A stretch of 64,000 bases of DNA, taken from NCBI GenBank assembly GCA_017961325.1, contig JAGCXM010000014.1, positions 62,001 to 126,000 of the forward strand, written 5' to 3'. Made by a program: the position numbers and the translations under genes. The notes below the pieces were generated by a model. That model worked only from the letters and a program-made list of their open reading frames with translations, ran no database searches and was not told the DNA's origin. Every line of letters begins with the position of its first letter. Position 1 is the stretch's first letter. Below, one piece after another: positions 827 through 57,051 of the stretch. Source of the stretch: a bacterium (lineage in GTDB: Bacteria > UBP6 > UBA1177).

Positions 827-3800
827 ATGAGAAAAAAACTGATTTTTATTGTTCTTCTCGCACTTCTTCTGCCGTTTGCCGTAGCGGCGAAGGAAATCGG
901 TCCCAACGTATCGAAATACCGCGGTCAGGAATTGAAATGGGAAGACGGTGCTTACGGTTATCACGTAATGTTCAAATCGCTCCTTGACAACAAACAACCC
1001 GAACCGCAGGGCTACGAAAACAACCCGCAGGGCGACACCTGCAAATCTTCGAGCACATACACTCTCGACATGTCCCACATTCCGGGAGACGCCATCGTTG
1101 AAGACGCATTCCTTATCTGGACGGCAGCCCAGCCGATTGCAAAAAAAGACGACATAACGGATAAAGAGGTAACCCTATCTTTCGTTTCCAGCCTCAGCAA
1201 CAACAGCATTGCAAAAAACATCACTGGAAAAAAGGCCTACAAAATTTCTGAAGCAGGAACTGTCGATTTTGAATTCGATGCATTCATCGACACGGAAAAT
1301 CCTGACAAAAGATGGTATACATACCGCGTAAAAGTTACTGATTTTTTCAAAGAAATCCAGGAACAGGCGAGAGCTGCCGCCAATGCCGGCGAAGCGATTT
1401 ACGACGGTTATTCCCTTCTCGGAGACTATACGCTTGCAGGACTTGAATGCAGCGAAGATTCCGTATACAAAGATCGTACCGACATGGTTGCCGACTGGTC
1501 GATAGTTCTCATCTATTCGTCAGTTGAAATCAGCCCGAAGAAAATTTACATGTATGACGGCTTCAAATCATACTGGCACGAACGCAGTGAAATCAATGTA
1601 ACCGGATTCGTATTTCCCATAAAACCCGAAATCAGAGTAACCCTCGCAAGTCACGAAGGCGACCCCGGACTCTGGGATCTCACTCATGACCCCATCATTC
1701 CGGAAGGCATTGAAGTTCTGGGAGAACCGATTGTTCCGGATCAATGGCTGCTCCTCAGCAACGAATGCAACCCGGCTGCTTTCGGTACGAACGGATTTGT
1801 AAATCTCGATTACACGGAAATATTCAACTCCATCTCTTCGGTTTACGGTTATCAGGATTCCATACCGACCTGCATCGGTGGCACACCGCCAGTTTTCAAT
1901 ACCGAAGAAATAGAATACGGTATCGAGGTCGACACATTCCTCATGGATGCTTCCGCCGATGACAAATTCGCAGACCATTTCCACAAAGGCGGTCAGAAAA
2001 TTTCCTTCAAAATCGGTGCGAACCAGGACTCGGTTATTACAAATTACATGATAGTATCCGTTGATACTAAAGCTCCGCAGTTCGATATTCCCGGACAACC
2101 GGAAAAAGTTGCCTGCACTCCGGCGAACAAATTCGACGCTTACTCGCTTGAAGGCAACTGGTGTCAAGGCAGCCTTGAGCACACTTTTGCACTCAGAATC
2201 CAGAACTGGGGAACGGACTCCACAAAAAACATCTCTGTCAGAGATTCGATTCCTGACGGAATGGAATATGTTCCCGGTTCAACCGAATATGCGACCAGTT
2301 TTGAAGTCAAAGACAACAAGAAAATAGCAAAAAGATGGACTCCCATTCCTGATTCCAACGGATTCCCGCTTGAAAACGGCTTCAAAGTTGCCGACTCTCT
2401 CAACTTCTGCCCCGAAAACAGCGACTATCTTTCATGCAACGATCTGATCGTAGTCCGCTTCAGAGCGAAAGTAAAAAGCGATGCGCCTAAAAATCAGGTT
2501 ATTGAAAACATAGCGACTTACAACACCCCCGGTGTAAACGACTACAAAACAAACCTCGGCATTCCCGTAAAACTCAGAATCCGTTCCGCAGGCTGCGTAA
2601 CTTCTCAGGATGCAGTAGACCTTTCGGAATGCGGCGGAGTAGGTGCTGCAGCATGCACGAAAAACGAAGACTGCGCTGAAGGATACATCTGTCAGAAAGA
2701 AACCGGCGAATGTACCGAAGATCCTTCTTTCGTAAAATGCAAAGACAGTGAAATCACTGCTTCTATAGGCAAAAACAGCCCGAGCAGCGAAGTTGTTTTA
2801 ATCAAAAATCCGCAAGCCGATCTCGTTATAGGCCAGCTTGAGCTTGCCGGAAGCGGCGAAAACTGTTACCTCAACCTCGATCAGATCAAGCTCAAAATCG
2901 ATGTAAAGGATTCAAAAATAACACTCTCCAACTTCAAAATGTATAACGACGCCAACGGCAACGGAACCGTTGATGCCGGAGATCCGCTCCTCGGCTCCAC
3001 CGACGTTCTTACATCAGGATATGCAACATTCTCAGCCTCCAACCCAGCCAACAGGATTTGGAGCAACAAGAAGAACAACATTCTCTTCACGCTTGACGCA
3101 AACTACTCATCTGAAACCATTGAAAATTCGGCAACATTCATTGCCAAAATCGAATCAGGTGCAGTCGTTCTGTCAGACGGCGGAACGCCGAAAATCAACG
3201 GTCTGCCGATAGATTTCGCTAAATTCCAGTTCGAACCCGACAGAGGTTTCATCATCAAGCCAGGTCCGCACGATCCTGAAGTTCCGGCGAAATCGGATAT
3301 GAACCGCTTCCAGGATGTTCTCCAGATAAGCATGACAGCAAAAGGTTCTGACGACATCCTCAAAAGCATCACAATCAAACCCACCAAAAAATCGGTGGAA
3401 TTAGGCAAAGGAATCAAAAGAATCGCCGTTTACGAAGATACCGACAACGACGGCAAGGGAGATGTAGAAATTGCTTCAACAACCAAATTCGACGGTCTTC
3501 AGAAACACACTTTCTCCATTGACAACTTTGAATTCCAGGCAAACACCGAAAAATTCATCACAATCAGGGCGGAACCTGCGCTCAGTGATGGGGATGTTTT
3601 CCAGATCGAAGTTTCGGCGAAGGTAAAGAATCTTGACATCGTAGCCAGCGGTTCAGTAACTTCAAAGCCTTACGAATACTCCTGTGATCCTAGGGTTGAA
3701 GAATGCGGCGATGAAGGCGGCTGTTCGGTAGTTGCACCGGAAGAAAACTCTCCGGCAGCAATTTATGCGGCACTTACGGCTCTTCTCGCACTCCTTTCCG

Positions 3801-3829
3801 CATTCGCTTTCAGAATGAGAAAAAACTAA
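827..3829 (+). CDS. Large exported surface protein with DUF11-like region and MYXO-CTERM-like tail
   Basis: 1000 residues, with ribosome binding site GAGGTGA before ATG. A signal peptide covers about residues 1-21 (cleavage near VAA-K). The N-terminal half is beta-rich and unassigned. A DUF11-like region (about 440-585) contains the typical DSIPDGMEYVPGS stretch. A disulfide-rich module follows at about 586-635 (CTKNEDCAEGYICQ). Two Ca-binding-like stretches follow (NDANGNGTVDAGD, EDTDNDGKGD). The C terminus is tripartite: a GGC motif with Cys966, a hydrophobic helix (about 975-994) and the basic end RMRKN. That layout matches MYXO-CTERM-type sorting signals, which anchor proteins to the myxobacterial surface. 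Sorting is inferred; no sorting protease is visible here. It appears to be a single-gene unit. Confidence 0.75.
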   Translation: MRKKLIFIVLLALLLPFAVAAKEIGPNVSKYRGQELKWEDGAYGYHVMFKSLLDNKQPEPQGYENNPQGDTCKSSSTYTLDMSHIPGDAIVEDAFLIWTAAQPIAKKDDITDKEVTLSFVSSLSNNSIAKNITGKKAYKISEAGTVDFEFDAFIDTENPDKRWYTYRVKVTDFFKEIQEQARAAANAGEAIYDGYSLLGDYTLAGLECSEDSVYKDRTDMVADWSIVLIYSSVEISPKKIYMYDGFKSYWHERSEINVTGFVFPIKPEIRVTLASHEGDPGLWDLTHDPIIPEGIEVLGEPIVPDQWLLLSNECNPAAFGTNGFVNLDYTEIFNSISSVYGYQDSIPTCIGGTPPVFNTEEIEYGIEVDTFLMDASADDKFADHFHKGGQKISFKIGANQDSVITNYMIVSVDTKAPQFDIPGQPEKVACTPANKFDAYSLEGNWCQGSLEHTFALRIQNWGTDSTKNISVRDSIPDGMEYVPGSTEYATSFEVKDNKKIAKRWTPIPDSNGFPLENGFKVADSLNFCPENSDYLSCNDLIVVRFRAKVKSDAPKNQVIENIATYNTPGVNDYKTNLGIPVKLRIRSAGCVTSQDAVDLSECGGVGAAACTKNEDCAEGYICQKETGECTEDPSFVKCKDSEITASIGKNSPSSEVVLIKNPQADLVIGQLELAGSGENCYLNLDQIKLKIDVKDSKITLSNFKMYNDANGNGTVDAGDPLLGSTDVLTSGYATFSASNPANRIWSNKKNNILFTLDANYSSETIENSATFIAKIESGAVVLSDGGTPKINGLPIDFAKFQFEPDRGFIIKPGPHDPEVPAKSDMNRFQDVLQISMTAKGSDDILKSITIKPTKKSVELGKGIKRIAVYEDTDNDGKGDVEIASTTKFDGLQKHTFSIDNFEFQANTEKFITIRAEPALSDGDVFQIEVSAKVKNLDIVASGSVTSKPYEYSCDPRVEECGDEGGCSVVAPEENSPAAIYAALTALLALLSAFAFRMRKN

Positions 3830-19305: not shown

Positions 19306-20565
19306 CTACCTGACGCAACGGACACTATAGCTGAATTCGAGGGTATCGTAGCTTACGCCACCGTTGTCGAAACACGCACACCATGCGAGGTTTGAATCAT
19401 CTGATAGAACAGAGGAGGACCAAAACCAGCCCGTATCACCGAATTTGCTGTCCCCCTCGGTTGAATCAGCAGAGCAAGAGAAACAATCACCTTCTGTCCA
19501 GCAGCTGTCATGCGAAAGACAACTTGTTGATGAATCGCCTGTGTCCACAACTCTGCAACTGCCGCCTGTTACTGTGAATAAGCATTTTTGAATAAGCGTT
19601 CTCAACTCGCTGATTGTCGGCAATCTCCAGTCAGGTCCGCCTTCCTTCAGGCCGTCACAGTATGAAACCGAGTCGCTCCAGGCATATATGGCATCAGCTT
19701 TTGCCGACCAAGTCAGATTAGTTGTCGAATCGTAGCACGGACCAGTGTTTGACGTGCTGCACTCGGGAAGTGCAGAGCAGGAAGTACCTGTCCAGTTGAA
19801 ACCGGGGCTGCACTTGCAGACATAAGTCGTGTCTCCAGTCGCAAGACATTCTCCGTTTGCATTCAAAATGCCGCTGCAAGGGTTCGGATCGCACGGGTCT
19901 ACCGGTCGCCAGCACTCAGTGCCGTTCCAATCATAATCAGAATTGCATTTGAAAATGCATTCACTGCTGCTCGGATTCGTGTCGTACGTGCCGGTCTCAG
20001 GCGGATACCACTCTTCTCCGTTCCATGTCTGCGAAACCGATTCCGCCGTGTTCCACTGAGCATTTGCAGGAAGTCCCGTGCAGTCAACAACTCGTGATTC
20101 GGCTTTGCAGACTGAACCTGTCCATGAATAATGATCATAACAACCGCAAGCATAACCGCCATTCGTCACAGTACACGCGCCTGTTGAATACATGATTCCT
20201 GCACACGGATTACCGTCGCAAGGATTTGCCTGAACAGGATCAGTGTCGGAATCATCGGCCGAATCAGCATCGTCATCTGCAGAATCAGCATTGTCATCGG
20301 TCAAATCCGCATCATCCTGCATCGTATCTGAATCGTCAGTTTGGAAATCGCCGCTGTCAGGAATTGTATCGGGATTCTCTGAATCAGGATTGTCCGCTGA
20401 AGCTGTATCGACCGTGTCTTCGTCAGTCACATCCTCATCAGCCACATCTTCGTCAGAAACATCTTCGCCCGTGTCGGTTCTGTCGTCGGTTTTCGAACCG
20501 CCGCCGCAGCTTGTGACAAAAACCAAAGCTGCGAAAAACGCAAAAACAACAAAAAATTTCTTCAT
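19306..20565 (-). CDS. EGF-like / Lcl_C lipoprotein with acidic tether
   Basis: 419 residues with lipobox VTSC (Cys20). A long Asp/Ser/Thr-rich tether (about 24-112) is followed by an EGF-like domain (NPCDGNPCAGIMYSTGAC, about 114-155). Next come the disulfide module CTGLPANAQWN...CNSDYDWNGTEC, a second EGF-like domain (PCDPNPCSGILNANGEC) and a C-terminal Lcl_C domain (about 270-419) with LTWSAKA, DWRLPTISELRTLIQKC and the ending YSVRCVR. It is the most modular of the five Lcl_C lipoproteins in this window. Probably outer-membrane or surface displayed. A promoter is visible at 20599-20626. Confidence 0.85.
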   Translation of the reverse strand: MKKFFVVFAFFAALVFVTSCGGGSKTDDRTDTGEDVSDEDVADEDVTDEDTVDTASADNPDSENPDTIPDSGDFQTDDSDTMQDDADLTDDNADSADDDADSADDSDTDPVQANPCDGNPCAGIMYSTGACTVTNGGYACGCYDHYSWTGSVCKAESRVVDCTGLPANAQWNTAESVSQTWNGEEWYPPETGTYDTNPSSSECIFKCNSDYDWNGTECWRPVDPCDPNPCSGILNANGECLATGDTTYVCKCSPGFNWTGTSCSALPECSTSNTGPCYDSTTNLTWSAKADAIYAWSDSVSYCDGLKEGGPDWRLPTISELRTLIQKCLFTVTGGSCRVVDTGDSSTSCLSHDSCWTEGDCFSCSADSTEGDSKFGDTGWFWSSSVLSDDSNLAWCACFDNGGVSYDTLEFSYSVRCVR

Positions 20566-32420: not shown

Positions 32421-33314
32421 TTAGATAAACATCATCGAACAGCCGTCGGATTTGCTTTCTTCCTTGTTTTCAGCAGGAGCTTCTGAATCGGTTGCAGGAG
32501 CTGCGGAATCGCCGTCAGCGGTGTCTTCCGTGGTTGTGCCGGTTGTCGGAGCTTCGGTGTTCGCTGCGTCTTCGTCTTCCGGAGCAGGAGAAATAACATC
32601 TCCATCGCCATCGCCTGCGCCACCTTCCACTATTGAAACTACATGACATGAAGCACAGCAATTTTCTTTGTTTTCTTCACAGTTTTCAAAAGCCCCAAGA
32701 CATTCATAAGTTTCCTTGGCTTTCTGAGCATTATCGGAACAACACTGTACGATTTCTTTATCTGTCTCACCGTAAGTTTTTAACGGTCTATCCAGTTTTG
32801 CGTCAAATTCCTCATCTGTTACCGGAGTCCTGCATGTATTATTGAAAGTCTTCGAGTATGAGGCACATTCATTGAGAAGTTCATCGTTTGCACAGATACT
32901 TCTCAGAGTGGGAAGCTCTGTTCCGCATTCTTTCTCTAAAACAGCAGTGCAACCTTCCGCACTGACATTTTCATCTTTTCCTCTTTGGGTTTCCCTACCA
33001 ATACAATAGCAGTAATACTCTCCGTTTGCCTCCAAATGACATTCTCCGGCATTGTTTTCACAGATAAATCCTGATTCGCTGCAAATATCGGCAAGTTCAA
33101 GTTCACATTCCTCATTTTTCGGCATATTCCCGATTTCTTCCGGATCAGAAATTTTTTCTCTACCGTCACGGCAATAACATTCTCTTGTGAAATACTCATC
33201 GGAAACTGTGTAGGTACATTTCCCAAGCTCAGATTCACATGACATCGCTTCGTTTTCCGCAAAAAGAGTTGTCGCAAACGCAAGCATTGCGATAAAAATC
33301 AATGATTTTTTCAT
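32421..33314 (-). CDS. Exported Cys-rich protein with short GCxxxxI tail
   Basis: 297 residues; the ATG at 33314 follows GGAGG. The signal peptide is about 1-19 (LFA-E). The body has more than twenty cysteines in modules such as CESELGKCTYTVSDEYFTREC and CENNAGECHLEANGEYYCYC, reminiscent of EGF/Kazal-type disulfide domains. After about residue 225 comes a Thr/Ala/Glu/Asp-rich low-complexity stalk, and the protein ends SDGCSMMFI. That last motif matches the ending of the subtilase at 40761 (SGCALTLI). I recognise no full-length family. Surface location is inferred. Confidence 0.7.
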   Translation of the reverse strand: MKKSLIFIAMLAFATTLFAENEAMSCESELGKCTYTVSDEYFTRECYCRDGREKISDPEEIGNMPKNEECELELADICSESGFICENNAGECHLEANGEYYCYCIGRETQRGKDENVSAEGCTAVLEKECGTELPTLRSICANDELLNECASYSKTFNNTCRTPVTDEEFDAKLDRPLKTYGETDKEIVQCCSDNAQKAKETYECLGAFENCEENKENCCASCHVVSIVEGGAGDGDGDVISPAPEDEDAANTEAPTTGTTTEDTADGDSAAPATDSEAPAENKEESKSDGCSMMFI

Positions 33315-33425
33315 TGTAGCCTCCATTAAATAATAAATAAACAGCGAAATTTGTTCGCCAACATTTGTTTAGTTACATGAAGTACTGATTTTTCTGACTC
33401 AAAAATAAAAAAAATTATCAAAATA

Positions 33426-35473
33426 TCACTCTTCTTTGTTAATTAAGAAAACTTTGTCATCCGTAATAAAGAAATCTTCATTTTCTTTATAACCCATTTT
33501 TCTAAAGTAATCCTCGAAAGCATCGTTATAAATTTTTCTGTTTTCTTTAGTATAAAACTTTTCGTCTGCTGAAGGTTCTTTTTCCCTTGCATCTTGGAAT
33601 TTATCTATTTTCGTGTATTTTTCACCAGAAGTCATTAAATCCTCCAAATTCAAGGCAACAACATATCCTTCTAAACCAAAGAATGGGTCATTCGGAGATG
33701 TGTTTTCCGAAAGAATTCCGGATGATATGAAAGCAGCCTCTACAACGTTTACACCTGAAGCCAAGTCAAGAATCGCCCATTCATTAAATGTACAGTCACA
33801 TGTAGGCAGTGCATTCGGTCTTGCATTAACGCATATCTGTTTTGGAGATTGATTTGCTTCCGTTTCCGAATTGAGACAACCGTTTTCACCTGTATTTGCA
33901 ACTATGTTATTATAATTCCAATCAAGCTCTTGCCTATTTAACGAATTATCGGTTGAATATCTCCAAATACTATCAGCTATAATATATGGAGGAAAAGAAA
34001 ATTCTATATTTTTAGGAGCTCCAGAAGTTTGATACCTGTAATTCATAACACTTCTATGAATAATACTATTTGGTCCAGAAGAATTATTATTACCATTATC
34101 ATTGTGGGTCAATCCAAAAGCGTGCCCCAATTCATGCATTGTTGTTCCGGTATATTGTTCTTGTGTTCCACCACTATTCCAAGAACCGAGAGATACAATC
34201 AATATATTACCAGGTCTAAGAGATAGACCGCTTGAACCGTTTGTCACGGATGAATGACGATTGGCAGCCACAACCCAACGATAAATGCCGTGTCTTGATG
34301 AAGTAAAATCCGTGGACATCTTCGTTCTTAAATAATAAGCAGAAGAATTAGGATTTGTTGCAGGTTCCTCATCTAAAGTAGCAAATTTTAAAGTGGCAGC
34401 ATCCGACATTTCACCTAAGTAATCATCAATATCAATATGAAGTCTAATATCTCCATATCTATCGAATGAACTGGTAAGTTGAGTCTTTATATAAGTTTCA
34501 TGATCTTTGAGAAAATTAACAAAATTACCTCCAATTGTCCTTCCGAAATAATCCACCTCTACGAACACATCTTTCTGAGTCGGACTGGCACCTTCCCAAG
34601 GAAGAAGAATATTTTCGTTGCCTAAGGTTTCGAGATAATCATTCAAACCGTCTTTGTCGGTGTCTTTTCCGGCAAGCAGAAAAATTGAAGAACTTGTTCC
34701 TAAAACTGACTCAAGCGCATCAGACAAACCGTCATAATCCAAATCACCTAAATTAGTGTATGGGTCAACTATTAATCTTGCATTTCCCTCAGAGTTTGAG
34801 CTAGAACTATGAGCTCCGCCAAATATGTAGCAGCCTGATGAACACGAACCGCTTGTTTTTTCTATTTTAGAAGAGAATCTCGAACCGCTATCGTCATCAT
34901 ATGCCACAATAGAATTGTTTGAAACAAGATAAAGAACAGTATCTACCGCCGAAGCTCCGCCGCTTGCATTCTTGTCTGTATTGAAATAATAAAAATAGAG
35001 TTTTCGCCAAGCAACAATCGGCGATGTCTGAGAATAAGCATCCCAAGCCGGAATGCTTTGTTTTATTCCGCCCAAGGGGAGATTATTCAGCATTGTTCCT
35101 GCGGTTCCGTTTGTGAACTGCTGAAGATTTGCCGTTTCACCGACTCTTCCTGAATAATAGTTACGCATAACAAGATGATAAGTTCCTGTTGTCGTAGGTG
35201 TGTATGTGAGAGTCGAATCATTGCTGTCCTTGTCGAAAGACAGTCTGAGCCACAGTCATCGTTCATAGCAACCTGAACATTACTGCTGTTCAAAAGATAA
35301 AGAACCGAGTCTCCGCTAGAAAATGTCCTGAATTTGTACTGTTTCCCTGCAGTCAGGCTTAACTGTCTTCTGTAAATTCTACTTGAATTTGTAAAATCAT
35401 TAACTTGCGGAGTGTTTGCCGCCGATACAAAAAACGGCATGAAAAATGCGCATAAAATCAGAAGTTTCTTCAT
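33426..35473 (-). pseudogene. Frameshifted secreted metalloprotease (PPC + metzincin)
   Basis: Two overlapping frames together read as one protein of about 680 residues. The first frame (from 35473) has a signal peptide (about 1-19) and the start of a PPC-like beta domain up to NDDCGSDC. The second resumes with SFDKDSNDSTLTYTPTTTGTYH and runs to 33426. The switch lies near 35238 and needs a single base change. Downstream, Ca-binding-like DLDYDGLSDALE and DTDKDGLNDYLE motifs precede the zinc motif MHELGHAFGLTH and a Met-turn SVMNYRY, which mark a metzincin, possibly M43-like. It is either a real decaying gene or a base-call error. The small gene upstream (35477) is likely its operon partner. 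Confidence 0.8.
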
Positions 35474-35476
35474 AGT

Positions 35477-36034
35477 TTACTCTCCCAAAATTTGTTCTTT
35501 TGCTTTTGCCAATTCCTCGTCGCTTATTTCGCGTCTCGATTTTTTAATTTTTTCAAGATAATCAAAGTATTTCTGTTGTTTTTGTTTCTGTTCTTCAGTA
35601 AGTTCTGTTTTATATCTGCTTTTTCCTACCGTGGCAAAAAACTTATTCTCAACATAATCGCGTTCTCTGGTATACCACTCTGGGATTGGCGGCAAATCGG
35701 GGTTTTTCTTAATCGCAAAATCAAGTTTAGTATCCAATTCTTCATATCTTTTTTGCAAAGTCTCTCCTTCAAGTTTTTCGACTTCGTCAAAATGAAGCGG
35801 TTCCAAGCCTGTCTGCTCGTTGAAAAGTTTCTCGGAATCGACAGGTTTTAAGGATCTTTTCAAAGCTTTTGTCATATCAGAAATTTGTTTTTCCTTTTCT
35901 ATCTGCTGCGCTTTGATATTTTTTTTAGTTTGAAATTCAGAAGCAGCGTCCTTTGATGATGTGCGCTGCATTAAAAAGAAAATACAACTGAAAAAAACTA
36001 TCAGCGCAAAAATAATAAGTACCCGTTTCTTCAT
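35477..36034 (-). CDS. Membrane-anchored or exported helical protein beside the protease
   Basis: 185 residues from the ATG at 36034 (AAGGA upstream). One N-terminal hydrophobic segment (about 4-22) serves as anchor or signal. The rest is hydrophilic, Lys/Glu-rich and predicted helical (KKNIKAQQIEKEKQISDMTKALKRSL, EEQKQKQQKYFDYLEKIKKSRREIS). It ends three bases before the metalloprotease start, so it is cotranscribed and may be a chaperone, inhibitor or regulator of the protease. No known family is recognised. Confidence 0.65.
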   Translation of the reverse strand: MKKRVLIIFALIVFFSCIFFLMQRTSSKDAASEFQTKKNIKAQQIEKEKQISDMTKALKRSLKPVDSEKLFNEQTGLEPLHFDEVEKLEGETLQKRYEELDTKLDFAIKKNPDLPPIPEWYTRERDYVENKFFATVGKSRYKTELTEEQKQKQQKYFDYLEKIKKSRREISDEELAKAKEQILGE

Positions 36035-36051
36035 TGAACATCCTTCGTTTT

Positions 36052-36939
36052 TCAAAATGAAAACTTAGTTTTATATTCTTCAAAATCTTTAATTATATCG
36101 GCAAGTTTTACCAAATTTGCATCTTCCATGTTCGCAAGCGGCTCGCGGAATTTGTCTGTGCATTTTTTCTTCATCGCGAGAGCCGTTTTTACAGGGATCG
36201 GGTTCGATTCCATGAACATCGCGTGGTTGATTTTGTTTGTCGCAAGCTGGATCTTTGCCGCCGTTGCAAAATCGCCGGAAAGGGCAGCATCGACCATTTT
36301 TACGCAGATTTCAGGATAAATATTGGACAAAACGCTTATGACGCCCTTGCCGCCCATCGAAATGAAGGGAACAACAGTAAAATCATCGCCTGAAAGGAAA
36401 TCGAAACGATCGGTTCCGACCGCATCGAGATAGTCTGCAAGTCTGCCGAGATCGCCTGTCGCCTCTTTGACGGCAACAACATTTTTGATTCCGGTTATCA
36501 TTTTGAGCGCGGCAGGCGCGATGTTGAGCCCGGTACGCCCCGGAACATTGTAAAGCACGATTTTTGCGCCTGTTGCGGCAACTGCGCTGTAGTGCACGAA
36601 CAAACCTTTCGGAGTAGGCTTGTTGTAATACGGTGTAACAATCAAAACTTTTTCAATTCCTGCTTTGAGAGCGATTTCGGTCTGTTTTACGCTGTCGGCC
36701 GTATTGTTCGTTCCCGTTCCGGCGACAAGGTCGAGAGTCGGACAATGTTCTTTCGTGAAGCGGAAAAGTTCCTCTTTTTCCTCGTGATTCAGAGTCGCTC
36801 CTTCGCCCGTCGTTCCTGCAACTACGACGCCCGAAACCTTGGCTTTGACCTGCTCGTCAAGCAGTTTTCCGAATGCATCGAAATCAATTTTCCCCGATTC
36901 CCTGAACGGGGTGACTATCGCCGTGTAAACACCTTTCAT
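36052..36939 (-). CDS. dapA: 4-hydroxy-tetrahydrodipicolinate synthase
   Basis: Condenses pyruvate and aspartate semialdehyde at the start of the lysine/diaminopimelate branch. 295 residues, a normal length. Motifs: AIVTPF, VVVAGTTGEGATL, VTPYYNKPTPKGLFVHY with the catalytic Tyr, and VVAVKEATGDL with the Schiff-base Lys. The start follows GAGGTT and lies just after the RSH stop, so it belongs to the gmk-RSH-dapA transcript. Confidence 0.96.
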   Translation of the reverse strand: MKGVYTAIVTPFRESGKIDFDAFGKLLDEQVKAKVSGVVVAGTTGEGATLNHEEKEELFRFTKEHCPTLDLVAGTGTNNTADSVKQTEIALKAGIEKVLIVTPYYNKPTPKGLFVHYSAVAATGAKIVLYNVPGRTGLNIAPAALKMITGIKNVVAVKEATGDLGRLADYLDAVGTDRFDFLSGDDFTVVPFISMGGKGVISVLSNIYPEICVKMVDAALSGDFATAAKIQLATNKINHAMFMESNPIPVKTALAMKKKCTDKFREPLANMEDANLVKLADIIKDFEEYKTKFSF

Positions 36940-36940
36940 T

Positions 36941-39259
36941 TTAACCTCTGTAGCTTACGTTGTTGATTTTGAAATCTATGATAACTTCTTTGTTTTTAAG
37001 GGATTCTTTAAGATTTTCAACGCTTTGGATGTTCGAACCCTTCACTGTGACATAAACTTTTCCGGAATATTCATCAGCATCATCGGCATTGAGATGTATA
37101 CTTGAAATATCGAAATCTTTGTCGTGGAGTTCTTTCGCAAGTTCCATCAAAGCCCCTTTTCTGTTCTGAAGGCTGATGATGAAAGAGATCTCGTATTTCG
37201 GATATTCGAACCAGTAGACATTTTCCTTGAGATGCTCTGCGTCGATCCGCGAGATTTTGGGGCATTTCTGTTTGTGGAGAATGTATCCTTCGTCAGACGA
37301 AACTGAAGCTACTACGCAGTCTCCTTCGACAGGCTGGCAGCAGCGTGCGATCTTGTAGTCGCTTATCAGGCCGATTCCTTTGATGAATATCGGTGAGAGA
37401 TCGGCGGCACGCTCGTCCTGCAGGACGAAAAGCGGTGCGACCCTGCGCGGAAAGGCACTGATGAGTTTGGAAATTTCATCATGCGAGAAAAATTCTTCTA
37501 TAATTGATTCCAGTTTCAGTTCTCCTGAAGCTGTTTTTATAAAAAAAGCACTTAAAGTGTTCTGTTTCGGCAGAGAAAACTTCTCGGAAAAACTCAAAAA
37601 TTCTGGCTGTTTTTCGAGATTGTCGAAAAAAGCGGTTTTTTCCTGCGATACGAAAAGAGGTTTTAAAATGTCCCGTCCCTTATTTTCCAGAATTTTATCC
37701 TGCTGCTTCTGGAGATAGCGTTTTATGAACTGTTTCGCACGCTGCGTTTTGACGAAATCCAGCCAGTCTTCGCGCGGATTCTGATTTTCCGCCGTTTCGA
37801 CCCTGACTTCGTCCTTGCTCTGCAGAACCTGACTTATCGTAGCACGTTTGCCGTTTATCGTTCCTCCGATGCACTTTTCGCCAAGATCACTGTGAATGGC
37901 GTATGCAAAATCGAGAAGCGTCGCTCCTTCCGGAAGAGAAATTTCCTTGCCTGTCGGGGTGAAAACGATCATTTTGTCGAGCGGAAGAAGAGTTTCTATG
38001 TCGTTTACGAAAGTTTCGGGTTTCGACGTTGAATCTATAAGTTCGTTGAATATCGCCTTAAGCCACTCGGCGAGAGCGTCTTCGCCGGAGGAATCGCACT
38101 CGGTCTTCCATTTCGAAAGCTGTCCTTCCTGCGCAACCGTTTCCATTTGTTCAGTACAGATCTGAAATTCGACAAAGTATTCCTTATATCTTATCAGCGT
38201 GTGCAGAGACTGGTATCCGTTAACTTTTGGAGTTGCGATGTAGTCTCTGAGATAACGCTGGACGATGGAAAATCCAGGGAACAGATGAAGCATGCCAAGC
38301 ACTTTGTAACAATCGAAAACATCGTCGGTTTTGAGGACTATTCTTACTGAAAGTATGTTTTTGAGGTCTCCGACTTCAAGGTTTTTCTTCAATGTTTTCG
38401 CGTAGATGTAATAATATGACTTTGTTTTGCAGTAAACCTTCGCGATTTTTGCCGCCATAGCCGGAGCAAAGTAGCGGAAAAGTTCCTTCGTGTTTTCATC
38501 CAGAGACTTCGCCGTCGCCGCTAAATTCGGATAGGTAACGTTCACGCAGCGGTCTATCTCCGCCCACTCTTCAGGAAATCCGAAGTAGAACGAAAGTGAT
38601 TCAAGAGCCTCTTTAAGCCAGTAGATTCCGAGCCTGTGGGCAAGCGGGACATAAAGATTGAGAGTCTCCAGCGCAATCCGTTTCTGCTTTTCTGGAACCA
38701 TTGCATCAAGTGTCATCATGTTGTGCAGACGGTCAAAAAGCTTGATTATGATTATCCGCGAATCGTTCTGTGCGAAAGTGAGAAGTTTTTTTATCGCCGT
38801 AGCCTGCTTTTCCTCGCGGGAAAGTTTGCGGCAGATTTCTTCGTTTTCGGTTTTTTCCCTGATTTCAGTAAGTTTTGTGACTCCGTCGACAAGATTGGAG
38901 ACATTTTTTCCGAAAGCGCTTTCTATCTCTTCGACAGTCATGCTCGTGTCTTCGACGGTATCGTGCAGAAGTCCTGCTATGACGCAGTCGTCATCCATTC
39001 CGCTTGCGGCAAGAAGATACGCGACGGTGTATGGATGGAAAATATAAGGCTCGCCGCTTTTTCGCACAACTCCGCTGTGTGCCGCCGAAGCAATCGCAAT
39101 CGCCTGCTGGATTCTCGCGGTGATAGCCGAAAGTTTTTCAGGATTCCTGTTCTCACTGTGCTTTTCGACTTCGCGGATTATCGAATCGGGACGGACGATT
39201 CTTGGAATGTTGATGTAAGGTTCGCTTTTCAAAATGGAGAGCAGCTTCTTTTTTTCCAT
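36941..39259 (-). CDS. rsh: RelA/SpoT homologue, hydrolase intact, synthetase degenerate
   Basis: 772 residues in the long RSH order: HD hydrolase, synthetase, TGS, C-terminal ACT. The hydrolase motif is complete (His99-Asp100 and Glu103-Asp104 in LLHDTVEDT, plus HP and FDRLHNM). TGS begins near VFTPTGKEISLPEGATLLDFAYAIH, and the ACT domain is at the end. The synthetase deviates. The usual catalytic Asp (YDLIAIR in Rel) aligns with Asn301 (LKNILSVR). The GRPK...S substrate loop reads CKTK...Y, and QIRTxxMH has become QICTEQME. The expected role is therefore ppGpp hydrolysis (SpoT-like). Operon with gmk upstream, a common pairing. Confidence 0.9.
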   Translation of the reverse strand: MEKKKLLSILKSEPYINIPRIVRPDSIIREVEKHSENRNPEKLSAITARIQQAIAIASAAHSGVVRKSGEPYIFHPYTVAYLLAASGMDDDCVIAGLLHDTVEDTSMTVEEIESAFGKNVSNLVDGVTKLTEIREKTENEEICRKLSREEKQATAIKKLLTFAQNDSRIIIIKLFDRLHNMMTLDAMVPEKQKRIALETLNLYVPLAHRLGIYWLKEALESLSFYFGFPEEWAEIDRCVNVTYPNLAATAKSLDENTKELFRYFAPAMAAKIAKVYCKTKSYYYIYAKTLKKNLEVGDLKNILSVRIVLKTDDVFDCYKVLGMLHLFPGFSIVQRYLRDYIATPKVNGYQSLHTLIRYKEYFVEFQICTEQMETVAQEGQLSKWKTECDSSGEDALAEWLKAIFNELIDSTSKPETFVNDIETLLPLDKMIVFTPTGKEISLPEGATLLDFAYAIHSDLGEKCIGGTINGKRATISQVLQSKDEVRVETAENQNPREDWLDFVKTQRAKQFIKRYLQKQQDKILENKGRDILKPLFVSQEKTAFFDNLEKQPEFLSFSEKFSLPKQNTLSAFFIKTASGELKLESIIEEFFSHDEISKLISAFPRRVAPLFVLQDERAADLSPIFIKGIGLISDYKIARCCQPVEGDCVVASVSSDEGYILHKQKCPKISRIDAEHLKENVYWFEYPKYEISFIISLQNRKGALMELAKELHDKDFDISSIHLNADDADEYSGKVYVTVKGSNIQSVENLKESLKNKEVIIDFKINNVSYRG

Positions 39260-39260
39260 T

Positions 39261-39911
39261 TTACTCCGTAAGTTTCCTTATAGTCTCAATGTTGTGGAAT
39301 ATCGAATTTTCAATATGCACCGATACGATGTTGCAGAGTTTTTCAAAAGCAACGTTAAGATTGTCATTTACAACAACAAAATCGAAGTACGGATAGTGCA
39401 GAATCTCGTTTCTCGCATTGTGAAGACGCATTTTTATAACCTTGGGAGCATCGGTCGCCCGCAGACGGAGACGCGATTCAAGTTCCTCCATCGAAGGAGG
39501 AAGCACTAAAACGAGAACAGCCTCTTTCGGAAAGGCTTTTTTGATGTTTATCGCTCCCTGATAGTCAATGTCGCAGATGAGATATCTGCCCGAATCAAGC
39601 TGTTTTTGGAGAAAATCCAGCGGCGTTCCGTAAAAATTGCCGTGGACTTCAGCCCATTCAGCAAAAAGTCCGGCCTCTCTTTTCGCAAAAAATTCCTCTT
39701 TTGAAAGAAAAAAATAGTCAATTCCGTCGACTTCACTTCCGCGCGGCGGTCTGGTCGTGCATGAAATTGATTCGGCAAGAAGCGGAAACTGTTTCTTCAA
39801 CATCCCGACCAAAGTACTCTTCCCAGCACCGGACGGAGCCGAAATAACGAAAATTTTACCGCGGACGGTATATTCTGAGCCGTTCAAAGCAAACCCCGAT
39901 TCATTTTTCAT
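39261..39911 (-). CDS. gmk: Guanylate kinase
   Basis: Phosphorylates GMP to GDP. 216 residues. The P-loop is SAPSGAGKST, the GMP-binding part SISCTTRPPRGSEVDGIDYFFLS, then EWAEVHGNFYGTP and RLRLRATDAPKVIKMRL. A short N-terminal extension (about 16 residues) precedes the core. The stop lies immediately before the RSH start, so the genes form an operon; the gmk-rsh order is widespread. A candidate promoter is at 39924-39951. Confidence 0.95.
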   Translation of the reverse strand: MKNESGFALNGSEYTVRGKIFVISAPSGAGKSTLVGMLKKQFPLLAESISCTTRPPRGSEVDGIDYFFLSKEEFFAKREAGLFAEWAEVHGNFYGTPLDFLQKQLDSGRYLICDIDYQGAINIKKAFPKEAVLVLVLPPSMEELESRLRLRATDAPKVIKMRLHNARNEILHYPYFDFVVVNDNLNVAFEKLCNIVSVHIENSIFHNIETIRKLTE

Positions 39912-39923
39912 AAAACCGCGGCA

Positions 39924-39951
39924 ATTATATAAAAAAATTATTTAATTTAAA
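39924..39951 (-). promoter_or_regulatory. Candidate promoter for gmk
   Basis: On the minus strand, TTTAAA (39946-39951) and TATAAT (39924-39929) with a 16-bp spacer, overlapping the end of the UbiA-type gene. The -35 match is weak. Confidence 0.4.
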
Positions 39952-40757
39952 GAAAACAGGGAGAAGATCAGAGAAATAATTGCAGTAATTCCACTCACCA
40001 GAATCATTCGCTTATAAATTTTCCCGTTAAAGTCATGTTTCAGGAAAAAACAGCTTAAAAACAGAACAAATAGTGCTGAAACCGGCATGATTACTACAAT
40101 CTTGAACGGCGTCATCAAAAATCCGGCAATGGAAAGTATCATTAAAACTGCTGACATAGTATAGGTTTTTCCCATACCCGGTGTTTTTTTCACATTTCTT
40201 CCGGCAAGAAAATCACCTTTAAAATCTGAAAGATCCTTTAAAGTTGTCACACCCCAGACATACAGAAACAGACTCGCCGAAAACGGCAGGAAACCGGCTC
40301 CGCCGGCAATTATCATCGGGTAAGATATACCAAAACCTGTAAAAAACTGTGCAAAAAAGCCGTGCTTTTTCAGCGCGAAAGGAGGCAGAGAGTAAAAAAT
40401 GCCGAAAACAAGAATGGAAAAGACGAGAAATTTTTCCCGGCCGTCAAAAAGAATCGCCGTTCCTGAAATCGAGCAGAAACAGATTAATAAAAGCCACAAA
40501 ACCGCGTCGCGCCTGGATACAACGCCGGATGGAAGCGGCCGCCACGGTTTGTTTACGGAATCTTCGGCAATGTCCGTAATCGAATTCAGCGTATAAACGA
40601 AATTGTATGGGAAAAGTGCTATAAAAACCGACTGAATCAAAAACAATGCGTCGAATCCGCCATTACTTAAAAGCCTTCCCGCAAAAAACGCGAGAAAGGA
40701 AAGAATCAGAACATCCGTTCGGTAGAGTCTGAAAAATGCCGGAATTTTACGGAACAT
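39942..40757 (-). CDS. UbiA-family prenyltransferase
   Basis: 271 residues with about eight transmembrane helices. The two Asp-rich Mg/prenyl-diphosphate sites are NSITDIAEDSVNKPWRPLPSG and DLSDFKGD. UbiA enzymes attach prenyl or phytyl chains to aromatic or sugar-phosphate acceptors (quinones, decaprenyl-phosphoribose, ether lipids). The acceptor cannot be told here. It starts three bases after the subtilase stop without a ribosome binding site, so translation is probably coupled. Confidence 0.88.
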   Translation of the reverse strand: MFRKIPAFFRLYRTDVLILSFLAFFAGRLLSNGGFDALFLIQSVFIALFPYNFVYTLNSITDIAEDSVNKPWRPLPSGVVSRRDAVLWLLLICFCSISGTAILFDGREKFLVFSILVFGIFYSLPPFALKKHGFFAQFFTGFGISYPMIIAGGAGFLPFSASLFLYVWGVTTLKDLSDFKGDFLAGRNVKKTPGMGKTYTMSAVLMILSIAGFLMTPFKIVVIMPVSALFVLFLSCFFLKHDFNGKIYKRMILVSGITAIISLIFSLFSLN

Positions 40758-40760
40758 TGA

Positions 40761-42740
40761 TTAAATCAAAGTGAGAGCACAGCCCGAATCATCATCACTA
40801 ATAACAGGTCCGTTATCTTCCGGATCATCTGCCTGAGACTCCTCTACTTCATCGCTGCAATCCGATCTGTCCCAACTCATGCAGTCTGAAGCACATTTTG
40901 CGTTTCCGTGTTCAGGAGCTCCGGCAAGCTGGTTGCAGGGCAGCGTGTTTCCGTCGCAGATTTCGTTAGCATCGACAGTGCCGTTTCCGCACAAAGTGTT
41001 GCCTGTGTCGCCAGGATCGGTGGAGGAACCAGGGTTGCCTGTGTCGCCAGGATCGGTGGAGGAACCGGGGTTGCCGGAATCGGATTGGTTGACATCTCCG
41101 CCGCATTCAATGCCCGATACATCGGTTCCGGCCATTTCCAAAGCCTTTTTGACAGCCCTGCATGCGTTGATTCTGCCGTAACCGTAGTTTGTGTTGAAGC
41201 CGTTGCCGTCGTATGCATCCATACCTATTTTATCGGAAGTCTCCTTATAAATTTCGTAAACCTGTTCTTTGGTAAGGTTCGGATTCGCAAAAAGAACAAG
41301 CCCGGTGATTCCTGCAGCAAGCGGACAAGCCGAAGAAGTGCCGCCGAAACTGTTCGTATAGTTGCCGAGTGCGTCCCCGTCGTTCATATTGCCTGCGTTG
41401 TAACCGCCTCCGCCCATGTTGTCGGTCGTCCAGATTCCGTCAGTAATACCGCCGCCGCTCCAAGCGTCACCGCCGTTCATATCCTGATCGCAGCTTGAAG
41501 CCATGAAGTCAAGCGAGTTGCCGAAATCGGAGTAAGAAGACCTCATTCCGGCGGCGTTGCTTGCACCGATCGCAAAAACATTGGGGTTGCTTGCGTAACC
41601 GTCCGTTTCAATGCTTTCACCGCCGTTTCCAGCCGCAAAAAGAATGATTGTTCCCAGACCGTTTCTGCCGGTTGTCGTGATATTCGCAACAAGATCCTTC
41701 AAGGTCTGGTTCATGTCGACCGTCTGACCTGTTCCGTCCGCCGGTCCCCAGCTGTTTGAAATTATGTCGGCACCTGCATTAGACGCCCATTCAAAGGTTT
41801 CGATCGCAGACGAATCAAGCGAATAGGTGTTCATGTTCATTCTTATCGGAATAAGCTGGCAGTTCGGACATGCACCGGCAATGCCGATTCCGTTGTCGGT
41901 AGAACCGCCCGCAACTCCGGCGACGGAAGTTCCGTGCATATCCGGATTCATGCCGCTCTGGTTGGGATCGGGATAGTCGTCTCCGTCGGCGAAATCATGT
42001 CCCGGAAGAAAACGACCCTGAAAATCTTCGTGCGTACTGTCAAAACCGTCGTCAATTATCGCCAGTTTTACGGTCGAGCCGCCGAGTTCGCCTTTGATCT
42101 GGCGCAGAACATCCCACGCTTCTGCGACATGCGTGCTGTCCGAACCGGAAACATTCGGATTCGTTCCGTCGTTGTAAAGATGCCACTGATTTGAAAAGAG
42201 CGGATCATTCGGAATGTATGTCCTCTTTTCAAATTTTACGAAAAAGCTCGGCTCGGCCTGGGCTGCAATCTTCTTTTCGACAAGTTCTACCGATTTTCTT
42301 ACCGGATTTCCGTTCGTTTCGGCAAGATACCAGTCCGGTGCGTACCGGAATTTTTTTACAAGACGCAAGCCGTTATTTTTACACCACTTTTCGGCATCTT
42401 TTATATTTGATACGCCGTTGATTTTCACAAAAACCCTGCCGCTTGCAAAAACCTTTTCCCTGCCGTTCCTTTTGTATGCAGGCAGAATTTTTCCGCTTTT
42501 TTCAAGTTCTTTAAGATTCTTTGAACTCAGTCTGTTGAAAAGATAGATATTTTCGTGCCTTAGTATGAAATTCAAACTTTTTGCAAAAGTGTTCACCGAT
42601 TTCGTCGCCCCATCCTGAACAAAAGTGTAGCCTGAAGTTTCGGAAAGCGTGATTTTTTTGCCGTTTGAATAGTAGTAGAGATTTTCCGCGAACATGAAAA
42701 GCGGAAGAAAAAGTACCGAAAGAATCAGAAATTTTTTCAT
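40761..42740 (-). CDS. Secreted subtilase with Cys-rich stalk and GCxxxxI tail
   Basis: 659-residue S8 peptidase. The signal peptide is about 1-18, followed by a prodomain (about 95-175; VFVKINGVSNIKDAEKWC). The catalytic triad is Asp230 (IIDDGFD), His269 (DMHGTSVAG) and Ser469 (GGTSSACPLAAG). After about residue 550 come two copies of a 12-residue PG/DTGN-type linker. A myxobacterial-type Cys repeat follows (CGNGTVDANEICDG...CASDC), then an acidic stalk and the ending SGCALTLI. The stalk plus Cys ending parallels the protein at 32421 and suggests surface retention. It is cotranscribed with the leucine-rich-repeat lipoprotein just upstream. Confidence 0.92.
   Translation of the reverse strand: MKKFLILSVLFLPLFMFAENLYYYSNGKKITLSETSGYTFVQDGATKSVNTFAKSLNFILRHENIYLFNRLSSKNLKELEKSGKILPAYKRNGREKVFASGRVFVKINGVSNIKDAEKWCKNNGLRLVKKFRYAPDWYLAETNGNPVRKSVELVEKKIAAQAEPSFFVKFEKRTYIPNDPLFSNQWHLYNDGTNPNVSGSDSTHVAEAWDVLRQIKGELGGSTVKLAIIDDGFDSTHEDFQGRFLPGHDFADGDDYPDPNQSGMNPDMHGTSVAGVAGGSTDNGIGIAGACPNCQLIPIRMNMNTYSLDSSAIETFEWASNAGADIISNSWGPADGTGQTVDMNQTLKDLVANITTTGRNGLGTIILFAAGNGGESIETDGYASNPNVFAIGASNAAGMRSSYSDFGNSLDFMASSCDQDMNGGDAWSGGGITDGIWTTDNMGGGGYNAGNMNDGDALGNYTNSFGGTSSACPLAAGITGLVLFANPNLTKEQVYEIYKETSDKIGMDAYDGNGFNTNYGYGRINACRAVKKALEMAGTDVSGIECGGDVNQSDSGNPGSSTDPGDTGNPGSSTDPGDTGNTLCGNGTVDANEICDGNTLPCNQLAGAPEHGNAKCASDCMSWDRSDCSDEVEESQADDPEDNGPVISDDDSGCALTLI
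40999..41070 (-). repeat. 36-bp tandem repeat in the subtilase linker
   Basis: Two 36-bp units (40999-41034 and 41035-41070) differ by one base and encode a Gly/Asn/Ser/Thr/Pro/Asp linker repeat. Confidence 0.9.
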
Positions 42741-53971: not shown

Positions 53972-54844
53972 CTAATCAGCGTTTCTGACGCAGCGGAGAT
54001 TGTGTTGGTTAGATTTATTGTCGGTGGCTATAGCTCCGATGTTGAAAAGCACGTACCAAGCGCGCTCTTCACTGTTAACAGAAGATGATGTCCAACACCA
54101 CTCATCATCTCCAAGCTTGCTGTAATAACCGTTTTCTTTCCCCTCACAAATACAATCGGTATCTGTCAAATCTTCAGTAGAGAGATGATCCGGATCAGAT
54201 ATTGCACACATACCGCCGGTAACTGTTCCTTCGCAATTTTGTATAAGCGTTCTTAATTCATCAATTTTAGGCAGTCTCCAATCGGTAAAGCCGCCTTCAT
54301 TGACATCGTTTTCACAATAACTTTTTGCCGCTTCCCAATTCATCTTGCTCCCTGCTTTTGCAGACCAGATCAAATTCAAATTTCTGCAAGGTGTTTCGCT
54401 TGTCGCACTGCATTCCGGAAGCACGACCTCCGGTTCTTCCGATTCTGCCGAATCTTCATCGTTCTCCGCCTCAGAATCGCCTGAATCCGAATCATCCGGA
54501 ACTGTAGCATCATCAGAAGGTTCAATGTCGGAATCATCTTCTGAATTACCTTGTTCTCTTATGCAAACATTGTCTTCAATTTCGCAGACAAGGCCTTCAT
54601 TGCAGGTTTTGTTCGGATAGCATTCTCCGTAAAGTTCCCCCTGCTTCTTTCCCTGATCAGAAGAGGAATCATCATTAGAATCACCCTCATCCTCCTTAGC
54701 ATCGTTTGATTCCGTATCAATGGAATCTTCATCATTCGCAGTTTCACCGGAGCCGGTTTTGTCATCGTTCGTAGAACTGTCGCCACACGAAACCATCAAA
54801 AACATTGCAGCGGAAATTGCTGCCAAAACAAAAAACTTTTTCAT
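53972..54844 (-). CDS. Lcl_C lipoprotein, single-domain paralogue
   Basis: 290 residues with lipobox MVSC (Cys20). An acidic Asp/Ser/Glu tether surrounds the module GELYGECYPNKTCNEG (about 72-98), almost the same as in the gene at 8242. One Lcl_C domain (about 150-290) follows: LIWSAKAGSKMNW, DWRLPKIDELRTLIQNC, WTSSSVNSEERAWYVLF and LRCVRNAD. Surface or outer-membrane placement is inferred. It stands beside the direct-repeat-flanked module that contains another paralogue (56371). Confidence 0.85.
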   Translation of the reverse strand: MKKFFVLAAISAAMFLMVSCGDSSTNDDKTGSGETANDEDSIDTESNDAKEDEGDSNDDSSSDQGKKQGELYGECYPNKTCNEGLVCEIEDNVCIREQGNSEDDSDIEPSDDATVPDDSDSGDSEAENDEDSAESEEPEVVLPECSATSETPCRNLNLIWSAKAGSKMNWEAAKSYCENDVNEGGFTDWRLPKIDELRTLIQNCEGTVTGGMCAISDPDHLSTEDLTDTDCICEGKENGYYSKLGDDEWCWTSSSVNSEERAWYVLFNIGAIATDNKSNQHNLRCVRNAD

Positions 54845-56370: not shown

Positions 56371-57051
56371 ATGAAAAAATTTTCACTTGTTTCGACTTTG
56401 CTTGTTATGGCAATTTTCGTTGTATGCTGCGGTGGCAACAATGATGATGACAAAAAAACTTCGGAAAATTCCCAATCTGCAGAAACCGCAGATTCTGACA
56501 ATGAAAAAACAGATGCAACCACTGAAGAAACAAATCAGTCCAACGAAGAAGTCGATGCGGAAACATCTGCCACTTCAAAAGAAGAAGCAAACGAGGATGA
56601 TTCAAATCCAGAAAATACTACTCTTTCCTGCAAAAATGACCTTTGCACGGATTCATCGACCAATTTGATGTGGTCTCCAAAAACCACAAAATATATGTCT
56701 TGGGACGAAGCAAAGGATTATTGTGAAAATTTGGAGGAAAACGGTTATTCCGACTGGCATCTTCCTACAATCAGCGAACTCAGGACGTTAATTCAAAATT
56801 GCGAAAATACGATAACAGGCGGCACATGTCAGGCAACAGACAGCTGTTTGTCTTTTGAATGCAGAGATACTTCGTGCGGCGGCTGCGAAAAGACTGCAAC
56901 TTCAAATTACAGCAAACTTGGCGACAGCGGTGACTTCTGGTCATCATCTGAACTTTCAGACGAAAATGGTGCATGGTACATATGTTTCTGCCACGCAGAT
57001 GTTAATATCGGTTCCAAAGATACCAAAAACCGTCTCAGATGTGTAAGATAA
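56371..57051 (+). CDS. Lcl_C lipoprotein inside the repeat-flanked module
   Basis: 226 residues, the shortest of the family here. GGAGG precedes the ATG. The lipobox is VVCC (Cys20), with an unusual Cys at -1. The tether (about 24-84) is Asp/Glu/Ser/Thr-rich; the Lcl_C domain (about 90-226) shows LMWSPKTTKYMSWDEAKDY, DWHLPTISELRTLIQNC, FWSSSELSDENGAWY and LRCVR. It lies between the two 32-bp repeats, oriented opposite to flavodoxin and DUF3793. Surface role inferred. Confidence 0.85.
   Translation: MKKFSLVSTLLVMAIFVVCCGGNNDDDKKTSENSQSAETADSDNEKTDATTEETNQSNEEVDAETSATSKEEANEDDSNPENTTLSCKNDLCTDSSTNLMWSPKTTKYMSWDEAKDYCENLEENGYSDWHLPTISELRTLIQNCENTITGGTCQATDSCLSFECRDTSCGGCEKTATSNYSKLGDSGDFWSSSELSDENGAWYICFCHADVNIGSKDTKNRLRCVR

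Follow-up and report, generated by a model that had tools for sequence, protein, structure and literature searches.

The substrates of sortases, exosortases/archaeosortases, rhombosortases and myxosortases share a tripartite C-terminal organisation, with a motif, a helix and a basic end (PMC11980579). In the MYXO-CTERM system, cleavage by MrtX depends on the Cys of the motif (Guo, Haft and Wall, PMC11980579). The order of events proposed for this tag is lipidation of the Cys, cleavage after the Cys and transport by the type II secretion system (T2SS), the lipidation step being itself a prediction; the attachment of a moiety is also presumed for other CTERM systems (PMC11980579). Here we describe two exported proteins, encoded in a 64,000-nucleotide stretch of a bacterial genome (the window), that end shortly after a Gly-Cys motif, and we compare this ending with the described tags.

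Results

Two exported proteins of the window end in a short Cys tail

The first-pass annotation had drawn attention to two proteins of the window with a signal peptide, an acidic low-complexity stalk and a short ending around Gly-Cys. Reading both genes on the minus strand confirmed each of these elements. The features concerned, in window coordinates, are:

32421..33314, minus strand: P0001, an exported Cys-rich protein of 297 aa, with about 8 paralogues in its own genome and no Pfam family
32424..32444, minus strand: short C-terminal tag GCSMMFI of P0001; its Cys and the Ser that follows are the same in all 25 homologues
32445..32636, minus strand: stalk of P0001, acidic, of low complexity and variable, with disorder predicted (pLDDT <50 from residue 227 onwards)
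39942..40757, minus strand: gene for a UbiA-family prenyltransferase (Pfam, 6e-19), starting 3 bp past the P0002 stop
40761..42740, minus strand: P0002, an exported subtilase of 659 aa (Pfam Peptidase_S8, 1.5e-46)
40764..40784, minus strand: short C-terminal tag GCALTLI of P0002
40785..40853, minus strand: acidic stalk preceding the tag of P0002

The last residues are KSDGCSMMFI in P0001 and DDDSGCALTLI in P0002, each followed directly by the stop, and both proteins begin with a type-I-looking signal peptide (..FA before the putative cut, EN after it). AlphaFold2 predicts the stalk and tail of P0001 to be disordered, and no clear structural relative of its domain was found. The short ends are not broken long tails, because the next genes start close by (28 bp past the stop of P0001, 3 bp past that of P0002) and the reading frames beyond the two stops contain no continuation of a Cys tag. 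Frameshift or readthrough into a lost helix was ruled out for P0001 by the sequence past the stop, and readthrough was rejected for P0002, where the in-frame sequence past the stop is the next gene. Of ten distinct P0002 orthologues, nine have a clean TAA as the subtilase stop.

The short tail is carried by unrelated exported proteins

We sampled 790 kb of the 2.35-Mb genome, as stretches, and retained 252 ORFs with a signal peptide, called by a crude home-made hydrophobicity rule together with inspection. Gly-Cys followed by exactly 5 residues and the stop was found in 9 of these 252 ORFs, against 0-2 occurrences of Gly-Cys at each of 58 other offsets within 0-58 (mean 0.43; Poisson P ~5e-10). 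The ending is indeed present on other proteins of the genome. The short tails of the sample are GCSMMFI, GCSMLFI (twice), GCSMLLI, GCSMLFL, GCALTLI, GCALVTI, GCSVTTL, GCSAILL, GCSVLLI and GCSAIIF, with GCSVVVVL and GCSLTL as near variants. The final residue is mostly Ile, also Leu, Val or Phe. A stop exactly five residues after the Cys, on an Ile, had been claimed initially; this is true of P0001 and P0002 and does not hold as a rule, since I, L, V and F all occur at the end and the Cys is followed by 5 residues in 32 of 40 short tails and by 4 or 6 in others. The three-residue spacing of a CaaX box is therefore not that of these tails.

In the own genome, the carriers are subtilases, a C25 peptidase, the Cys-rich family of P0001, a 608-aa relative of the long-tagged protein described below, and others without Pfam match. 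The 40 short-tailed proteins, from four sampled genomes, fall into 15 clusters without detectable similarity beyond the tail; four of these clusters comprise at least 3 proteins, and one singleton, a cut 104-aa ORF ending in GCSMLFI, is possibly a piece of a Cys-rich family member. Overall, at least six unrelated families carry the tail, and tagged proteins would number dozens per genome, as extrapolated from the sampled stretches. Among C25 peptidases one subgroup is short-tailed, and another subgroup as well as the members from family f4, in the sister order, end without a Cys; therefore, the C25 domain does not always come with the tag. The second subgroup (L232 and orthologues, G000:C6) is about 600 aa long, ends in ..FKEFDI without a Cys tail and is found in every genus genome. 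An exported protein of about 610 aa, short-tailed as well (AGCALIFI, SGCSLILI, SGCTLTLI), lies upstream of the subtilase in the genus relatives L125-L129 and is also found at L293:16052-17878; its homologue in the own genome is on a different contig (C46).

A lipobox regular expression matched 2 of 39 tagged proteins, both artefacts on inspection, and 179 of 654 other signal-peptide ORFs. The absence of a lipobox from the tagged proteins fits a C-terminal tag acting as the anchor. Many of the other near-C-terminal cysteines of the census are accounted for by Lcl_C lipoproteins (PF07603), encoded in the window at 8242-9669, 9674-11362, 19306-20565, 53972-54844 and 56371-57051, most of which end in ..VRCVR or similar.

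A conserved tail behind a diverging stalk

MAGs from ruminants contain close orthologues of P0002. Among ten distinct orthologues, pairwise identity is 81% in the catalytic part, 42% in the stalk and 88% in the last eight residues, and the codon differences within the tail, over all pairs, are 141 synonymous and 44 non-synonymous. In the P0001 family (25 members) the stalk is free in both length and letters, and the tail Cys and following Ser never vary. The homologues of both proteins thus keep the ending. Beyond the genus the short tail takes forms such as GCSVVAL, GCSILKI and ACSVILI, in which Cys-x4-[ILV] is retained.

C-terminal peptide ligands typically have a free C terminus in I, L, V or F at a fixed spacing. 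The tail could accordingly be an unprocessed recognition peptide, whose free hydrophobic C terminus would serve export or anchoring by binding to a receptor, PDZ-like or associated with the secretin, the Cys being neither lipidated nor a cleavage site. Besides this type of ending, the conservation of the very residues that follow the Cys, with mostly synonymous changes, and the lack of a helix that would keep the tag in the membrane speak for such a peptide; however, it leaves Gly-Cys, the most constant element, unexplained. We regard this reading as rather unlikely, though a reasonable alternative, and return to it below with the long form and the protease.

The short form is specific to one order

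The DNA pattern GC[SA]-h-x-h-h-stop gave 328 matches in 25 genomes of the order, versus 10 for the reversed pattern used as a control. Counts per genome are 11-24 in the genus and 1-14 in the other genera of the order, and the enrichment is present in every family of the order. Three f4 genomes, from the sister order of the same phylum, gave 0-1 matches; the 358 genomes of other families gave 7 at most and mostly 0 or 1. Because the pattern is at background in the sister order and in the other families, the short form is an innovation of this order. Extra matches elsewhere were found in G242, G079 and G353; with the myxosortase profile, G242 and G353 gave no match and G079 weak ones only. G242, which belongs to another phylum, has 7 matches versus 0 for the control, several of them GCALGVV, GCALGIV or GCALGVL. 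These endings are probably unrelated, since that genome has no match to the myxosortase profile.

The expansion of the P0001 family, whose roughly eight copies in the own genome supply many of the matches, might suggest that the short tails are the decaying remains of long tags or the mark of a single duplicated gene family. The clusters without similarity outside the tail, several of them with multiple members and spread over unrelated families, the conservation of the tail next to a diverging stalk, and the enrichment in all families of the order make such an origin highly improbable.

The same core precedes a helix in long-tailed proteins

A third protein of the window, on the plus strand, had been described as having the same GC[SA] core followed by a membrane helix and RMRKN, and this is what its sequence reads:

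827..3829, plus strand: exported DUF11-type protein of 1000 aa with a long tag
3719..3826, plus strand: long tag GCSVVAP-EENSPAA-helix-RMRKN of this protein

Its C-terminal end is GGCSVVAPEENSPAAIYAALTALLALLSAFAFRMRKN. Four long tails were found in the sampled third of the genome, namely GCSVVAP-EENSPA-helix-RMRKN, GCSLEVI-DENGS-helix-KKVRS, GCAVTAL-EETESS-helix-RRFLLK and GCAVTAI-DTNPAS-helix, the latter without a basic end. In the own genome, a long tail is thus a GC[SA] heptapeptide resembling the short tag, then [DE]xxx, a helix and, in most cases, basic residues. No short tail has a transmembrane helix after the Cys motif or a basic end; long tails of the same genomes have the helix, and basic ends such as RMRKN, KKVRS and RRRMAA. 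A paralogue of the 827 protein is split by an in-frame TGA (G000:C43:145887-148265; L099:8310-8981), and the downstream piece bears one of the four long tails.

Both forms occur among homologues. In the family of the 827 protein, the 1000-aa members are long-tailed across the genus and a 608-aa paralogue of the N-terminal part ends in GCSVLLI; subtilases homologous to P0002 have Cys, helix and RRK tails in f4 and short tails in the order. Family f3 has a long GCGCSVVPVEQ-helix-RRRMAA alongside a short GCGCSLI, and the GCGC of its long form is close to the GCGC motif of MYXO-CTERM. In a sister-order sample (G026) every clear tail is of the long form, usually made of CNYG or CSYG, a helix and KK. 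The simplest history suggested by these sequences is that the short form arose from a tripartite tag by loss of the helix and of the basic end. A recognition peptide, by comparison, leaves unexplained why the long form should have the same core ahead of a helix and basic residues.

A single myxosortase-like protease accompanies the tags

A myxosortase-like protease of the CPBP group was found by profile search as a single copy in 28 of 28 phylum genomes, in G024 and G025 only as contig-end fragments. Genes of PF02517 (CPBP, Rce1-like) number one per genome examined in families f1 and f2; in f3 and f4 there is an additional gene, unrelated to the first. The best NCBIfam matches of the protease, for f1, f2, f3 and f4 proteins, are MrtP, MrtC and Mrt_core (E 1e-22 to 1e-30), and its scores lie below the curated myxosortase cut-offs: 80.9 (own genome), 84.2, 84.3 and 91.4 bits versus 100 for Mrt_core (NF040914). 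The PF02517 score is 52.7 bits versus 22.4. The catalytic motifs (EE..FR, H, H..N) are intact, with E122, E123, R127, H161, H198 and N202 invariant in 21 sequences, and the structure model has a pLDDT of 90.9. Neither a profile search nor Foldseek against the PDB returned an Rce1 structure for it. A 350-aa gene upstream of the protease in the own genus, without Pfam hit, was rejected as a part of the system: it is not adjacent in f1 genus g4 or in f2. As for secretion, of 27 phylum genomes searched for the T2SS secretin GspD, 24 scored above cut-off, two gave weaker matches and one, G002 (59% complete), gave none.

The initial suggestion that the helix-bearing form is the long version of the short one is borne out by the core shared within the same genomes, by homologues that swap long and short tails, and by this one protease found throughout the phylum. 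The universal presence of a single-copy myxosortase-like protease is also left unexplained if the tail is only a recognition peptide.

A prenyltransferase gene next to the subtilase

The UbiA gene starts 0-3 bp past the stop of the tagged subtilase in 12 of the 12 genus genomes with both genes on one locus, and the upstream gene is always a short-tailed subtilase; in a thirteenth genus genome the UbiA gene is on a stretch following the subtilase. This adjacency was seen only within the genus. The Asp-rich motifs of the UbiA protein are intact (NSITDIAED and KDLSDFKGD). UbiA enzymes are generally thought to act on the cytoplasmic side. The gene may encode the lipid enzyme or be a plain operon neighbour; nothing else observed points to a lipid enzyme.

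The Cys content of the P0001 family bears on what might be joined to the tag. With 22 Cys in the exported domain and 1 in the tail, the total is odd, which suggests that the tail Cys is unpaired. One could imagine that the myxosortase-like protease processes the tag without any lipid, and that a surface molecule is coupled to the new C-terminal Cys or its thiol, by the protease itself or a different enzyme, through transpeptidation or a disulfide, in line with the moiety thought to be attached in other CTERM systems (PMC11980579). Yet the subtilases have no fixed Cys parity and no acceptor is indicated in the genome, and we give this scheme little credit.

Discussion

What we observed directly is the motif, how well it is conserved, its relation to the long form and its genomic company (a CPBP protease, a T2SS, no lipobox); taken together, these make it reasonably probable that GC[SA]hxh[ILVF]-COOH is a sorting tag of the MYXO-CTERM/myxosortase kind, cut down to the Cys core and a hydrophobic pentapeptide, with no helix or basic tail. 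The first-pass annotation had proposed the short form as a C-terminal lipidation or sorting signal. The notion of a signal stands, as the motif is found genome- and order-wide on exported proteins; lipidation, cleavage and surface location are steps that we infer from the related systems.

According to such a scheme, the tagged protein would be exported by Sec and its N-terminal end cut by signal peptidase I. The hydrophobic C-terminal pentapeptide would then dock on the inner membrane from outside, a lipid would be attached to the tag Cys, and the CPBP protease would take off the residues past the Cys, as Rce1 does with the -aaX of a CaaX protein. Finally, the T2SS would move the lipid-anchored protein to the cell surface, the variable acidic stretch serving as a spacer. 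The short form would be the same tag pared down to what the enzyme must see, and hence a CaaX-like end on an exported protein. The main difficulty with the scheme lies in how an intramembrane protease would recognise a substrate devoid of a helix, a task for which the hydrophobic pentapeptide and the lipid on the Cys would have to suffice. The long forms alone could be the reason why the protease is retained.

A more specific version, which we put forward tentatively, is that the tail is a helix-free, CaaX-like lipidation box on exported proteins. The Cys would receive a lipid outside the inner membrane, perhaps a prenyl group for which the neighbouring UbiA protein is the candidate enzyme, and the CPBP protease would remove the five-residue tail. 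This would be an extracytoplasmic bacterial counterpart of CaaX/Rce1, derived from a MYXO-CTERM-like tag by loss of the helix.

If the short form is such a sorting tag, its conservation without a helix or basic end on at least six unrelated families across an order would reveal how little of a Cys tag is needed for recognition, and would make a direct tie between myxosortases and the CaaX principle of their relative Rce1. A short synthetic substrate derived from the tag would make it possible to ask whether Cys lipidation precedes cleavage and to find the lipid transferase. Moreover, sequence alone would then suffice to list probable surface proteins in an uncultured lineage of the rumen.

Comparison with known systems

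The closest system is MYXO-CTERM (TIGR03901; MrtX/MrtC/MrtP). Both have a signal peptide, a flexible stalk, an invariant Cys motif (GC here, GCGC in f3) and dozens of tagged proteins per genome, together with a myxosortase-group CPBP protease and a T2SS, and in both the cargo includes proteases and adhesin-like proteins. The short form differs by the absence of the transmembrane helix and of the basic end, with a stop 4-6 residues past the Cys. No NCBIfam CTERM model, TIGR03901 included, matched the short tails; the long tails reached 11.5-12.4 bits at best with TIGR03901 (cut-off 20). JDVT-CTERM (NF033191; MrtJ) has in common the invariant Cys and the CPBP protease, and one sister-order long tail came near its threshold (20.9 bits, cut-off 27); that tag is tripartite, however, and the short tails gave no match to it. 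The eukaryotic and archaeal CaaX box with Rce1 resembles the short tag by a Cys followed by a few, mostly aliphatic C-terminal residues, and by a protease of the CPBP superfamily in the genome. CaaX has three residues after the Cys and is found on cytoplasmic proteins, whereas here there are usually five, on proteins with a Sec signal peptide. With bacterial lipoproteins (Lgt/LspA lipobox) the shared idea would be a lipid on a Cys as the anchor, except that the lipobox is N-terminal and absent from the tagged proteins. The literature searched held no description of a Cys tag without a helix. Altogether, the kind of system, sorting of Cys-tagged proteins by a CPBP protease, is known, and its helix-less form is new.
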